Shown one piece after another: positions 69 to 7,476 of a stretch of 12,551 nt of DNA. Below the pieces are notes generated by a model, which was given only the letters and a program-made list of their open reading frames with translations, was not told the origin of the DNA and searched no databases. The stretch's first letter is position 1, and each line of letters opens with the position of its first letter. Origin of the DNA: Candidatus Latescibacterota bacterium. Lineage in GTDB: Bacteria > JAAXHH01 > JACQVL01. The DNA is taken from assembly GCA_016209865.1 (NCBI GenBank), contig JACQVL010000148.1, forward strand, positions 1 to 12,551. The letters run 5' to 3'. Position numbers and translations under genes: made by a program.

Positions 69-200
69 AGTGACGAGTGACAAGTGACGAGTAAAAACAA
101 TACAAAGGTTTTTCTTATGGCGCTGTCGTATGATCGACGCTCTCCTTCCCACGCATGCGAGAATCCGGGGCTTTACACTCGTCACTCGTCACTCGTCACT
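69..200. repeat. Inverted repeat built from GTGACGA heptamers
   Basis: The arms at 69-92 and 177-200 are each 24 bases long and reverse-complementary except for one position. The spacer between them is 84 bases. Each arm is itself about three tandem copies of the heptamer GTGACGA (CGTCACT on the other strand). The right arm contains the stop codon of the amidohydrolase (198-196). Transcribed from the minus strand it could fold into a long stem between that gene and the next. It has no U-tract after the stem, so it is not a standard terminator. The same word occurs once more at about 1045-1055. Confidence 0.85.
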
Positions 201-1026
201 GCTCTTGAAACCACAACCGCGTCGACGTCGTCTCTAAAATCGTCCGCTGCTCCGCCTCGCTCAGGCTAAGCTCGTCCGTGAAAATCGTGAGATGCTGCGT
301 GTACGTCACTTTCGGACACCACAGCTCGCACGGGAAATCCGTCCCCCAGACGCACCGGCCGGGCCCGTACGCCCGGATCACCTGCCGCACGGCGTCGTGC
401 ATGTCGCGGCACGGGTACGGCTCGGCCGACCCGGTCGGGACGAACGTCAGCTTCGCGTGGAGGTTGGAATACTGCGCCAGGTCGACGACGGTTCGCAGGG
501 TCGCCTGGCCGTCCGGCGAGGGGTTGATGCCCAGGCAGTGGTCGAGGACGACCGTGAGGTGCGGGAACCGCTCCAGCATCCGCGCCAGTTCGTCCGCTAA
601 CGACGCGCCGGTCAGGACGTTGACGACGATGTTGAGTCGCGCGGCGGCCGACCAGAGGGCTTCGACGCCCGGATGGTCGAGATGCGATGGGTCGGCGCTC
701 GGCACGCTCCGCAACCCGCGGACGTTGTACCCTTCCACAAGCCGGGTCAACTGTTCGGGACTCGTCGGATCATCAGGGTTCAGCGTGCAGACTCCGACCA
801 TCCATCCAGTATTCGCCCTCGCGCTGTCGGCTAAGAACCGGTTGTCCCACCGGTACGCGCTGCTCGTCTGGATGGCGACGACGTGGGTGACGCCAGACGC
901 CGCCGTCTCCTGACGCAGATGCTCGATCGTGCCCGTCCCCTCAGGCGGCCGGAGCGGGTTCTCGATCTTGGGGTACGCGACTTCGTCATTCGAATAGATG
1001 TGCGCGTGCGTGTCGATGATGTGCAT
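196..1026 (-). CDS. Amidohydrolase-2 family metal-dependent hydrolase
   Basis: This 276-residue protein looks like a complete TIM-barrel hydrolase of the amidohydrolase-2 family (the group that includes ACMS decarboxylase and 2-pyrone-4,6-dicarboxylate hydrolase relatives). Visible metal-site features are H7 and H9 in the N-terminal D-T-H-A-H motif, H163 in L-D-H-C, and D230 in W-G-T-D-F-P. The substrate cannot be read from sequence, since these enzymes act on varied carboxylated or cyclic compounds. Probably cytosolic: there is no signal peptide. The ATG at 1026 follows a purine-rich leader (GAGGGG, about nine bases upstream). The gene sits 52 bp after the RepA-like/ExeA-like gene and may be read with it. 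The stop codon TGA is supplied by the tandem GTGACGA repeat at 177-200. Family confident, function not. Confidence 0.85.
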   Translation of the reverse strand: MHIIDTHAHIYSNDEVAYPKIENPLRPPEGTGTIEHLRQETAASGVTHVVAIQTSSAYRWDNRFLADSARANTGWMVGVCTLNPDDPTSPEQLTRLVEGYNVRGLRSVPSADPSHLDHPGVEALWSAAARLNIVVNVLTGASLADELARMLERFPHLTVVLDHCLGINPSPDGQATLRTVVDLAQYSNLHAKLTFVPTGSAEPYPCRDMHDAVRQVIRAYGPGRCVWGTDFPCELWCPKVTYTQHLTIFTDELSLSEAEQRTILETTSTRLWFQEQ

Positions 1027-1059: not shown

Positions 1060-1105
1060 TTTTCCCTTTTCCCATTTTCTATTTCCCATTTCCCATTTCC
1101 CCTTC
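1060..1105. repeat. Tandem TTTCCCA (GGGAAAT) heptamers
   Basis: The plus strand shows TTTTCCC, TTTTCCCA, TTTTCTA, TTTCCCA, TTTCCCA and TTTCCCC in succession, a period of about 7. The array fills most of the spacer between the RepA-like/ExeA-like gene and the amidohydrolase and runs into the 3' end of the former, giving it its last codons and its TAG stop (1081-1079). A single AGTGACGAGT word of the other heptamer family follows at about 1045-1055. Confidence 0.85.
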
Positions 1106-3142
1106 TTTTCTTTCTCCGCCCTGTCCGGCCCGGGCGCCGGCGGCGCCGTTGACGACCCCCTCATCGATCGCGGTGGCGCGGCGGGTGGAGCCGATGAGCA
1201 GACAGATATCGCACAGGCTGTTGATGCGCCTGGGCACGCCGCCCGACAGTTCATACAGCCGTGCCACGGCCTCCGGCGTGAAAATCTCCTGCGTCACCCC
1301 GGCCACGCCTAACCGGTGCTGGATGTAATCCTCCGTCTCCACCTCCGACATCGCCGTCAGATGGTGCCGGAAGGCTAAGCGCTGCTCGAATTGCGGGATG
1401 GCGTCGATGTGGGTGTTCAGCTCGGGCTGACCGACCAGGATGGCGGTCAGCAGGAACCGGTCGTCGAGCTGGAAATTGAGGAGGAGGCGCAGCTCCTCCA
1501 ACGTCTCAAAATCGTTGATCAACTGGGCCTCGTCGATGATGAGCACCGCGTGCCGGCCGTCCTGGTACGTCTTCAGCCACGTCTCTTCCAGCAGGCGCAG
1601 GGTGGCCGTCTTATCCCCCGTCCGCGATTCCCGTCCGAGCTGGTAGAGGATTTCGCGCAGGAACTCGACCCCCTTCCATCGCGGGTTGGTCAGCACCGCG
1701 ATCTCGTACTGCTCCGGGTTGAGCGTGTGGATGAACGTCCGGATGATCAACGTCTTGCCGCATCCGTACTCCCCGGTTAACAGCGCCGCGCCCATTTGTT
1801 CGTTGACGACGTACTGGATTTTGAACAAGGCTTCCTGGTGCTGTCCCGTATCGAAGTAGAATTTGGGGTTCGGGGTGTTGTCGAACGGCTTTTCCGTCAA
1901 CCCCCAGTATTGCAGATACATGGCAGCAGCTCCGTTGTGGTGGGTCTGTTGATACAGCCCTGTCTGGAAACGTCGGGCGGGAGCGGACGACGGGGGCCCG
2001 GCGGATGATGAGGCGGTCAGGACGGGCGACGGTGTCTCGCTGACGACAGTCGGCGTTCCGGGGTGGCTCGTGCGTTGACGGGTGAACCGGGGACCATCCC
2101 CGGCCGGTGGCCCAGACGACGGGGGCAGCGACGTCGGGGATGGGGGTGGTGTGGCTGGTTGGAGCGCCGCGGCCACCTCCGGGGCTTCGATCTGGGGCCG
2201 CTGGTCGGACGGGCCTGCGAGCAGGGCGATATGTGCATTGCGGGCTCGGCTCCCCGGCACGTACAGGATGAACCAGGTCCGGTCGATCTTCTCCCACCCG
2301 ACTCGTTCGACAAAACTGGTGGCGATGAGGTCCCGATGGGCCGGTTCGAGCCGGCGCTGGGGAGAGGACAGCCAGCCGGATTCCGGGAAAGGGAGCAGTT
2401 GGCAGAGGACCGGGTACGATACCCGCCATCCTTTCAGGCCGCGCCGGAACACCTCCTCGAATTTCAGGGTCAGCAGTTCGTACAACCGGCTGGCGACCGG
2501 GTTGCGGAGGATGCGAAAATACACGATATCGACCGGCTGCACGAACCGCTGGTTGATGTTCTCCAGGTACCAGGCGCCGAACCGAATGGAGTGGGTCGCC
2601 GCCCCGATGTCATGGCTGAACGATTCCTCCTGGAAGGAGACGTCGTCGTACAGATGGAACGTCTGGGACAAATGGCCGGTCTCGGTGCCCTTCATGAAGG
2701 TGACGTGGCTGTGCACGGTCACGGCGGCGATCCGCCGGAGGGAGGAGCGGACGCGCGCCAAGTTCGAGCTGAACGGGGCGAGACCGAGGATCTGTAGCAT
2801 CTGGTGCAGGGAGAACGGAACGGGGTTCCGCAATGGGAGGCCGCACTGGAGGACCAGGTACTCGAGGACTTTGAACACCTTCCGATCGAACGCGTCCGGG
2901 AACCCGTAGATCGGGTCGGCGGACACCTGCCAGCGCAGCGTCGCGTCGACGCTATGCCGGGCGAGCTTCGTCTCGTAGGAGAGGATATGCCGTCGTCGCC
3001 GTCCCCCCGCATAGTCCCCAGCGTAATCTAAGGAAAAAAACGGGAGGGCGGCGAGGGTCGTCTCTTCACGAGACAACAAGACGAGCGGGACGTCCCTGAG
3101 TCCACCCTCGTCCTCGTTTCGGTCGTCTGGCTCCATGGGCAT
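1079..3142 (-). CDS. RepA-like replication initiator fused to ExeA-type AAA ATPase
   Basis: The frame is open for 687 residues and has two parts. Residues about 35-300 resemble plasmid replication initiator protein A (RPA/TrfA-like paired winged helices): an S-Y-E-T beta region, a Y-G-F-P-D segment, a helix-rich block, then a R-L-Y-E-L-L-T-L-K-F-E second winged-helix start. Residues about 325-407 are Pro/Ser/Thr-rich linker. From M408 the protein matches an ExeA/GspA-type ATPase, opening M-Y-L-Q-Y-W-G-L-T-E-K-P-F, with Walker A G-E-Y-G-C-G-K-T (457-464), Walker B L-I-I-D-E-A-Q (534-540), a G-Q-P-E-L sensor-1 region and a G-G-V-P-R-R-I-N sensor-2 region. ExeA itself has a C-terminal peptidoglycan-binding part that is absent here. 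No Shine-Dalgarno precedes the ATG at 3142 (or the ATG two codons later). The last eight residues come from the downstream repeat. Function is unknown; DNA binding with ATP-driven remodelling is inference. Confidence 0.8.
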   Translation of the reverse strand: MPMEPDDRNEDEGGLRDVPLVLLSREETTLAALPFFSLDYAGDYAGGRRRRHILSYETKLARHSVDATLRWQVSADPIYGFPDAFDRKVFKVLEYLVLQCGLPLRNPVPFSLHQMLQILGLAPFSSNLARVRSSLRRIAAVTVHSHVTFMKGTETGHLSQTFHLYDDVSFQEESFSHDIGAATHSIRFGAWYLENINQRFVQPVDIVYFRILRNPVASRLYELLTLKFEEVFRRGLKGWRVSYPVLCQLLPFPESGWLSSPQRRLEPAHRDLIATSFVERVGWEKIDRTWFILYVPGSRARNAHIALLAGPSDQRPQIEAPEVAAALQPATPPPSPTSLPPSSGPPAGDGPRFTRQRTSHPGTPTVVSETPSPVLTASSSAGPPSSAPARRFQTGLYQQTHHNGAAAMYLQYWGLTEKPFDNTPNPKFYFDTGQHQEALFKIQYVVNEQMGAALLTGEYGCGKTLIIRTFIHTLNPEQYEIAVLTNPRWKGVEFLREILYQLGRESRTGDKTATLRLLEETWLKTYQDGRHAVLIIDEAQLINDFETLEELRLLLNFQLDDRFLLTAILVGQPELNTHIDAIPQFEQRLAFRHHLTAMSEVETEDYIQHRLGVAGVTQEIFTPEAVARLYELSGGVPRRINSLCDICLLIGSTRRATAIDEGVVNGAAGARAGQGGERKEGEMGNGK

Positions 3143-3146
3143 CTCG

Positions 3147-3184
3147 AACGTTCAAACGTTGGAACGTTCGAACGTTGGAACGTT
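3147..3184. repeat. Five AACGTT palindromes at exact 8-bp spacing
   Basis: AACGTT starts at 3147, 3155, 3163, 3171 and 3179, with two-base spacers CA, GG, CG, GG. This can also be read as a 16-bp unit repeated twice plus a half. It makes up almost the whole spacer between the M20 deacetylase stop (3186-3184, which shares one base with the last copy) and the RepA-like/ExeA-like start at 3142. It may be a stop-codon-associated tandem repeat like the others here, or a binding array for the neighbouring Rep-like protein. A degenerate copy of the family is at 9437-9455. Confidence 0.9.
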
Positions 3185-4299
3185 TACACACAAAACCGTT
3201 CGATCAGGTTCCGGTACACCTGGACTGCCCGGTCGAGTTGCTCCAGCTTGACCCACTCATCGATCGTATGGGCCTGCTTGATGTCGCCCGGGCCCAGGAC
3301 GACGAGTTCCATCCGTGAGCAGAAGACCAGCCCGTCCGTCCCGTACGGCACCGTCTTCGCTTTTCGCCGGCCGGCGGCCGTCAGCGAGGCCTGGACGACC
3401 TCGGACTGGATCGGGGTTAAAAACGGGCCGCCCAGCCGGTGGATGTCGACGTCCACCCCGCACCGCCTGGCCGCGTCCCGGACCCGCTGGAACAGCGCGC
3501 GCTCGTCCTGGCCGGGCATCGGACGGTAGTTGACCGTGCAGACACTCAGCGGGGCGGTGACGTTCATCTGCGTCCCCCCGTCGTTGATCCCGATGTTCCA
3601 GTCGGAGTACGGCGGGTCGAAGTCTGCGTTGCCATGCCGGGGGTCGGTCGTCAGTTCCTCGTAGATAGCCTTCATCTCGACGAGGAACGGGATCATCGTC
3701 AGGTTGGCGTTGATGCCCTTGCCCGTGCTGCTGTGGGCGGCCCGCCCGCGCGCGACCGCCCGGATGCTGACCGCGCCCTTGTGAGCGTGGATGACCTCCA
3801 TGTTCGTCGGTTCGCCGATGACGCCGTACCGGACATCGCTCTGGTTGTACAGCTTCGACCGCTGGTCGATCATCTTCGCCCCCGTACATCCGACCTCTTC
3901 ATCCGACGTGAACAGGATGTACAGCGGGGCTTTCAGGTCGGACAGCCGGTAGGGCTCGGCCGCGGCCAGCATGCAGGCGAGCGCCCCTTTCATATCGCAA
4001 CTGCCCCGTCCGTAGAGCTTGTCGCCCCGGATGACCGCGCGGAACGGGTCGAACTCCCATCCGTCGGCGGGGACGGTGTCGCAGTGTCCCAAGAGCGCCA
4101 GGCCCCCGCGGCCTCTCCCCTTCCGGGCGACCAGGCTCACTTTCTCGACGCCCGCGGCATCCCGGTAGACGATCCGCTCGACCGTAAAATCCAGGGACTT
4201 CAACCGTTCGTCCAGACAGTCGGCGATACTGACGTTACTGTTCGCGCTGATCGAATTGTACTGGATGAGGTCTTTCGTGACGTCGACCGCCTCGATCAT
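3184..4299 (-). CDS. argE: M20 metallopeptidase, acetylornithine deacetylase (ArgE)-like
   Basis: This 371-residue protein is a full-length M20 family zinc hydrolase, best matching ArgE, which removes acetyl from N-acetylornithine in arginine synthesis. Predicted metal and catalytic residues are H72 and D74 (G-H-C-D-T-V), D102 (R-G-S-C-D-M-K-G), E134/E135 (S-D-E-E-V-G), E163 (G-E-P-T) and H344 (Q-A-H-T-I-D-E). The insertion with H189 (A-A-H-S-S-T-G-K) is the usual dimerisation-domain contact. The frame stays open back through the tRNAs to 4572, but the ATG at 4299 is chosen because a GGAGG lies six bases upstream and family homology starts there. It is the last gene after three tRNAs. Succinyl-diaminopimelate desuccinylase (DapE) is the main alternative; the P-G-D-I-x-Q-A-H-T-x-D-E-W-V ending favours ArgE. 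Confidence 0.88.
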   Translation of the reverse strand: MIEAVDVTKDLIQYNSISANSNVSIADCLDERLKSLDFTVERIVYRDAAGVEKVSLVARKGRGRGGLALLGHCDTVPADGWEFDPFRAVIRGDKLYGRGSCDMKGALACMLAAAEPYRLSDLKAPLYILFTSDEEVGCTGAKMIDQRSKLYNQSDVRYGVIGEPTNMEVIHAHKGAVSIRAVARGRAAHSSTGKGINANLTMIPFLVEMKAIYEELTTDPRHGNADFDPPYSDWNIGINDGGTQMNVTAPLSVCTVNYRPMPGQDERALFQRVRDAARRCGVDVDIHRLGGPFLTPIQSEVVQASLTAAGRRKAKTVPYGTDGLVFCSRMELVVLGPGDIKQAHTIDEWVKLEQLDRAVQVYRNLIERFCV

Positions 4300-4391
4300 A
4301 AGGACCTCCGTATTGGAGAATCGAGATTCGGAGTGAGGGGTACAGGCAAGACAACACAGATTCTGCGCGGACACAGTCGGAACACGAGGGA

Positions 4392-4475
4392 TGCCGGAGG
4401 TCGGACTCGAACCGACACGACCTTGCGGTCGGGGGATTTTGAGTCCCCTGCGTCTACCAATTTCACCACTCCGGC
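4392..4475 (-). tRNA. tRNA-Leu(CAA)
   Basis: The acceptor stem GCCGGAG (4475-4469) pairs with CTCCGGC (4399-4393), and the discriminator A is at 4392. The anticodon arm has five pairs around the loop CTCAAAA, giving anticodon CAA for UUG. A long variable arm (CGACC-GCAA-GGTCG) confirms a class II tRNA. The T arm is GTCGG-TTCGAGT-CCGAC. CCA is not encoded. Confidence 0.96.
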
Positions 4476-7455: not shown

Positions 7456-7476
7456 CACCGACCACCGACCACCGAT
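7456..7476. repeat. Three CACCGAC heptamers abutting the prs stop codon
   Basis: CACCGAC (7456-7462), CACCGAC (7463-7469) and CACCGAT (7470-7476) lie head to tail. The next bases, 7477-7479, are the prs stop codon read on the minus strand, so the array begins exactly where the gene ends. Read in the transcript direction the word is TCGGTGG. The rest of the 60-bp spacer before rplY shows only its ribosome-binding site. Confidence 0.85.

Follow-up and report, generated by a model that had tools for sequence, protein, structure and literature searches.

The window, which is the whole 12,551-nucleotide stretch of DNA analysed here (contig JACQVL010000148.1 of a Candidatus Latescibacterota bacterium), contains a gene, termed rpa-exeA, that encodes an RPA-type N-terminal region and an ExeA-type AAA+ ATPase joined by a Pro/Ser-rich linker (Table 1). 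The other genes of the window encode an amidohydrolase, an M20 peptidase, three tRNAs, the ribosomal proteins bL9, bS18 and bS6, an IspE-like GHMP kinase, Wzi and a SIS protein. The original prediction, made from the letters of the window, had described a chromosomal setting with ordinary neighbours and no partitioning genes in view; the ribosomal, tRNA and housekeeping genes agree with this description, and no partition genes are present around rpa-exeA. A plasmid contig was ruled out, since the ribosomal and tRNA flanks are common to the window and a related genome (G013). All genomes compared are draft assemblies, including that of the window (G000, 83% complete), three relatives in the same order (G001, G011 and G013) and 12 genomes of a genus designated g3.

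Table 1. Coordinates of the rpa-exeA gene, its parts and its flanks in the window.
Feature	Position	Strand	Evidence or remark
rpa-exeA fusion ORF, 687 aa	1079..3142	-	Open frame; co-linear homologues in G001/L021 (55%) and G011 (52%); codon-position pattern of purifying selection
Predicted RPA double winged-helix DNA-binding region, aa 26-303 (Pfam match aa 26-225)	2234..3067	-	PF10134; tblastn matches to plasmid RepA; predicted model
Pro/Ser-rich linker, aa 305-407	1922..2230	-	Alignment; pLDDT
ExeA/TIGR03015-type AAA+ ATPase domain, aa 408-662	1157..1921	-	TIGR03015, AAA_22, tree
Walker A, GEYGCGKT, aa 457-464	1751..1774	-	Read in translation
Walker B, VLIIDE, aa 533-538	1529..1546	-	Invariant in three homologues
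M20/ArgE-DapE-like peptidase, conserved upstream flank	3184..4440	-	PF01546; in 16/16 genomes of the order
Amidohydrolase (PF04909), downstream of the fusion	196..1026	-	Same strand as the fusion; position not conserved among relatives
8-nt tandem array (AACGTTNN)n	3144..3184		Occupies the interval from the M20 peptidase gene to the fusion; ychF and rpa-y1 lie here in relatives

The single uninterrupted frame reported in the original prediction was recovered as 687 codons without a stop (minus strand, from 3142 to 1079); the plus-strand frame over the same interval is interrupted by stops. Three copies of rpa-exeA were found in this analysis, in the window, G001 and G011, the latter two genomes representing two other families of the order. 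The G001 homologue (628 aa) aligns end to end with the window protein at 55% identity, and its contig is apparently JABIQT010000027.1 of Candidatus Latescibacterota bacterium SI072_bin148 (L021). The G011 homologue is truncated by a contig end and shares 52% identity over 550 aa. Both begin in the alignment at Met3 of the window protein (nt 3136), which is the likely start codon. These co-linear homologues, in two other assemblies, rule out a sequencing or assembly error that joined two genes, and the initiator-like part and the ATPase are thus truly fused, as had been claimed. Between the copies, the first and second codon positions are 64–74% identical and the third positions only 32–37%, which indicates that the protein sequence is under constraint. 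No second copy of the gene, and no lost partner, was found in the window's own assembly (83% complete).

The N-terminal region matches the Pfam family RPA (PF10134) at residues 26–225 with an E-value of 7.7e-7 and a score of 29.4 bits (cut-off 27), and the L021 homologue scores 37.4 bits against the same family. In tblastn searches against plasmids, annotated replication initiators of Rubrobacter, Deinococcus and Thermus were matched, the best being the RepA of a Rubrobacter radiotolerans plasmid (27% identity, E-value 9e-20). A search of phages gave no relatives of this domain, and a PDB sequence search gave no relative of either the RPA region or the ATPase. A model of the N-terminal part was computed with AlphaFold2 from three sequences, with a mean pLDDT of 64.8 and values of 70–85 in the core. 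Residues 26–303 of the model superpose on domains 2–3 of RctB with a Z-score of 14.7 (rmsd 4.7 for 243 aligned residues), on Pi with a Z-score of 10.6 and on RepE with a Z-score of about 10, compared to about 6–7 for unrelated entries, at sequence identities of 10–15%. The predicted fold is that of a Rep-type double winged helix, and profile, plasmid matches and model all agree with the initiator-like RPA region that had been proposed.

The resemblance to RctB (the initiator of Vibrio chromosome 2), Pi of plasmid R6K and RepE of plasmid F lies in this predicted fold. These three proteins work at origins that carry iterons, and we know of no AAA+ domain in any of them. The likeness to plasmid RPA proteins of Rubrobacter, Thermus and Deinococcus (PF10134) is likewise in the double winged helix; in contrast to these, the window gene is chromosomal, has neither iterons nor ParAB, and ends in an AAA+ ATPase. 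Iteron-sized repeats were absent around the gene in the window, G001 and G011.

The linker, a flexible tether between the predicted DNA-binding fold and the AAA+ motor, is weakly conserved and its length differs among the homologues in the alignment. In a full-length model from the three sequences, the pLDDT falls to about 25 over residues 310–400, and the ATPase part is poorly folded.

The ATPase domain matches AAA_22 at residues 450–576 (E-value 4.3e-23, 82.5 bits, cut-off 27) and, over its full length (residues 408–662), the XrtA/PEP-CTERM-associated ATPase family TIGR03015, with an E-value of 2.4e-63 and a score of 214 bits that lies below the family cut-off of 324.5. The Walker A residues G457, G460, G462, K463 and T464 are invariant across the three homologues. 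An ExeA-type ATPase with intact Walker A and B motifs, as read in the original prediction, is therefore present. The suggested kinship to both ExeA and TniB stood in part: Pfam TniB matches residues 443–593 above its cut-off (E-value 7.1e-8, 32.5 bits, cut-off 22.4), although AAA_22 scores far higher, and PHROG 296, 'DNA transposition protein', is also matched (2.7e-30), but the nearest relatives are ATPases of exopolysaccharide clusters rather than transposon TniB proteins. These closest relatives are stand-alone ATPases of 260–280 aa with 44–46% identity, those of three genomes (G053, G021 and G057) being located inside gene clusters with polysaccharide genes. In a small tree that was built without transposon TniB sequences, the three fused ATPases group together (support 100/100) and are nested with the stand-alone exopolysaccharide-cluster ATPases (100/97), so that the fused domain was probably taken from that lineage. 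It differs from TIGR03015 ATPases of such clusters in its score under the family cut-off, in its fusion behind an RPA region, and in that a second genome copy was not found. It differs from the TniB/MuB/IstB-type transposition ATPases in its tree position and in its surroundings, since no adjacent DDE transposase (TniA/TnsB) was found, either in the window or in the gene neighbourhoods of the related loci.

The place of the gene on the chromosome is shared by its relatives. In G011, the gene order is M20 peptidase, ychF, rpa-y1 (described below) and rpa-exeA. In G013, the M20 peptidase and ychF are followed by a broken rpa-y1, rpa-exeA is absent, and on the other side lie the ribosomal, prs, ispE and Wzi genes that are also present in the window. 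One contig of G001 ends with M20 peptidase and ychF, and another starts with rpa-y1, rpa-exeA and pyruvate dehydrogenase genes, the latter at the position of the amidohydrolase in the window; these contig ends are compatible with the same place. In the six g3 genomes that were inspected, the next genes after M20 peptidase and ychF are those for pyruvate dehydrogenase, without an intervening rpa gene, and no RPA match was found in any of the 12 genomes of this genus. In the window, rpa-exeA directly follows the M20 peptidase, and rpa-y1 is absent. The ychF gene was not found in the whole window assembly (83% complete) and is present in 15 of the 15 other genomes of the order; its absence exactly where the relatives carry it makes a deletion of ychF and rpa-y1 likely. 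A single ancestral insertion followed by later losses would be the simplest history.

In G001 and G011, rpa-exeA is immediately preceded, tens of bases upstream and on its own strand, by a paralogous gene, rpa-y1. The product of rpa-y1 comprises an RPA domain (46–48% identical to that of the window), a long, acidic linker and, at its C-terminus, a Y1_Tnp domain of the IS200/IS605 HUH type (E-value 9.9e-27; NF033573 95 bits, cut-off 55). The original statement that no transposase is in view thus holds for the window but not for the relatives, where a Y1 transposase domain is encoded by the neighbouring gene. In G001, this domain aligns with the ISDra2-type transposase structure 2xm3 (E-value 2e-18), and both the HUH motif (PDHIHIEV) and the catalytic tyrosine (QYLDAQQ) are intact. 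In G011, both HUH histidines are lost (PDSVQIEV) in a domain whose remainder is 51% identical, and the gene has a frame break. Compared to TnpA of IS200/IS605 elements, with which it shares the profile match and, in G001, the HUH motif and tyrosine, the Y1 domain is fused behind an RPA domain and the long acidic linker, occurs in single copy, and has lost its HUH motif in G011. It was found in one copy each in two genomes; the 16 genomes of the order that were searched gave no further Y1 domain of its type, so that it is not a multiplying insertion sequence there. In G011 (L022, about 3233) and G013 (L036, about 1960), which represent two genera, rpa-y1 also has an in-frame TAA at the same codon, and the codon pattern is constrained before as well as after it; either readthrough or parallel breakage would account for this codon.

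The presence of this sister gene beside rpa-exeA in two relatives suggests that an old plasmid or transposon toolkit has seemingly been adopted by the chromosome for some task in DNA handling. In our preferred reading, to which we assign a probability of roughly one half, rpa-exeA is a chromosomal, vertically inherited descendant of an RPA-type initiator that has acquired an ExeA/TIGR03015-type AAA+ domain and acts as a domesticated, DNA-targeted AAA+ remodeller. The double winged helix would bind a particular site in the chromosomal DNA; on binding ATP, the AAA+ domains would assemble as oligomers on or beside this DNA, and ATP hydrolysis would remodel the nucleoprotein complex, either by opening DNA or by loading or releasing a partner. 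The ancestral module would have consisted of two genes, rpa-y1 and then rpa-exeA, in which one of two paralogous RPA domains was joined to a Y1 HUH nuclease and the other to an AAA+ ATPase. RPA-Y1 would have been directed to sites of the same kind, where it may have bound or cut a single-stranded hairpin, and shared targeting by the RPA domains would be the simplest common model for both proteins. From their adjacency and paralogy, we infer that the two proteins may have acted together. Tentatively, they could have formed a chromosomal two-protein machine in which paired winged-helix domains of the initiator type recruit the AAA+ ATPase and the Y1 HUH nuclease to one and the same DNA site, as a split counterpart of Rep proteins that combine HUH and ATPase activities, with the ATPase half persisting alone in some lineages. 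In the window genome, the ATPase protein alone was found, and its present role is thus probably independent of a cutting partner; with the partner absent there and inactive in G011, cutting is unlikely to be an essential present role in these genomes.

The original prediction had offered a domesticated initiator, a regulator and a DNA-remodelling factor as readings. The shared chromosomal place supports the domesticated status of the module, whichever of these tasks the protein now performs. The locus is dispensable, as judged from its absence in the 12 g3 genomes and its breakage in G013, and could be a slowly decaying relic. In that case, an element inserted a single time behind ychF in the order's ancestor would have left its replication and transposition genes there, and these would now be disappearing, having no function for the host. 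The patchy losses (rpa-y1 in the window, rpa-exeA in G013, where rpa-y1 is broken, both genes in g3) and the dead HUH motif and frame break in G011 would fit such a history. However, the frame, the Walker motifs and the codon constraint of rpa-exeA have been kept at 52–55% identity over three families, unlike those of a drifting gene, and other genes of an element are not seen nearby; we consider this explanation rather unlikely.

Two further roles were weighed. In a transcriptional or envelope-linked regulator, the RPA winged helices would bind an operator and the ATPase would act in the control of envelope polysaccharides; the location of the nearest ATPase relatives in exopolysaccharide clusters would fit this, as would the Wzi, SIS and GHMP kinase genes of the window and the glycosyltransferase genes further along in G013. 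Such a regulator is improbable, however, as ribosomal, tRNA and housekeeping genes separate the fusion from the Wzi region, the partner in the relatives carries a Y1 nuclease domain and is not an envelope protein, and the downstream neighbours in G001 are pyruvate dehydrogenase genes. Least probable, and by our estimate very much so, is a system that still moves or replicates DNA. G001 retains the HUH motif and catalytic tyrosine of rpa-y1 together with the Walker motifs of rpa-exeA, but the genes are in single copy at a fixed chromosomal place without iterons, and the pair was found on no plasmid, phage or viral contig searched.

RPA domains fused as in rpa-exeA and rpa-y1 were found in this order only, in a search of 384 genomes; the other RPA matches that were opened are stand-alone proteins, the best being in G336, G384 and G061. 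A second sample of 386 genomes, largely the same ones, added no case. Plasmids, phages and viral contigs gave no co-linear match to the fusion, the viral scan being made with two short patterns, and a viral, phage or plasmid source was rejected on this basis. A defence system was also rejected, as PADLOC gave weak P-loop matches only. The combination had been thought undescribed, and no description of it was found in the open-access literature searched. The parts are known singly, and the pairing of RPA plus AAA+ with RPA plus Y1 was not encountered outside the order (about 380 genomes, plasmids, phages and viral contigs). Under the preferred reading of a domesticated remodeller, an initiator DNA-binding domain would serve as an interchangeable targeting module on the chromosome, which offers a testable case of plasmid or transposon parts entering chromosomal service, and ExeA/TIGR03015-like ATPases of exopolysaccharide clusters would be linked to a predicted DNA-binding protein.

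Several repeats and RPA genes were observed besides these. The (AACGTTNN)n motif of the 8-nt array recurs on some ten further contigs of the window genome; the inspected occurrences lie mostly at gene ends or between them. The motif is absent from the 15 other genomes of the order. Given this dispersal it is not specific to rpa-exeA, and its candidacy as an iteron or target site is unsupported, as the relatives that have both proteins lack it. A 7-nt tandem array (1061–1101) overlaps the 3′ end of rpa-exeA and encodes its last codons, and other 7-nt arrays of differing sequence are located at 68–92, 176–200 and 7456–7475. All three sampled genomes of another phylum encode, on what appears to be the chromosome, a stand-alone RPA protein of some 540 aa (L092, 4655–6274; L093, 4136–4816; G384:C40:21624-22442). 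On a contig of 412 kb, the gene for another RPA protein (L024, 2095–4475) adjoins flagellin and ParA/ParB genes.
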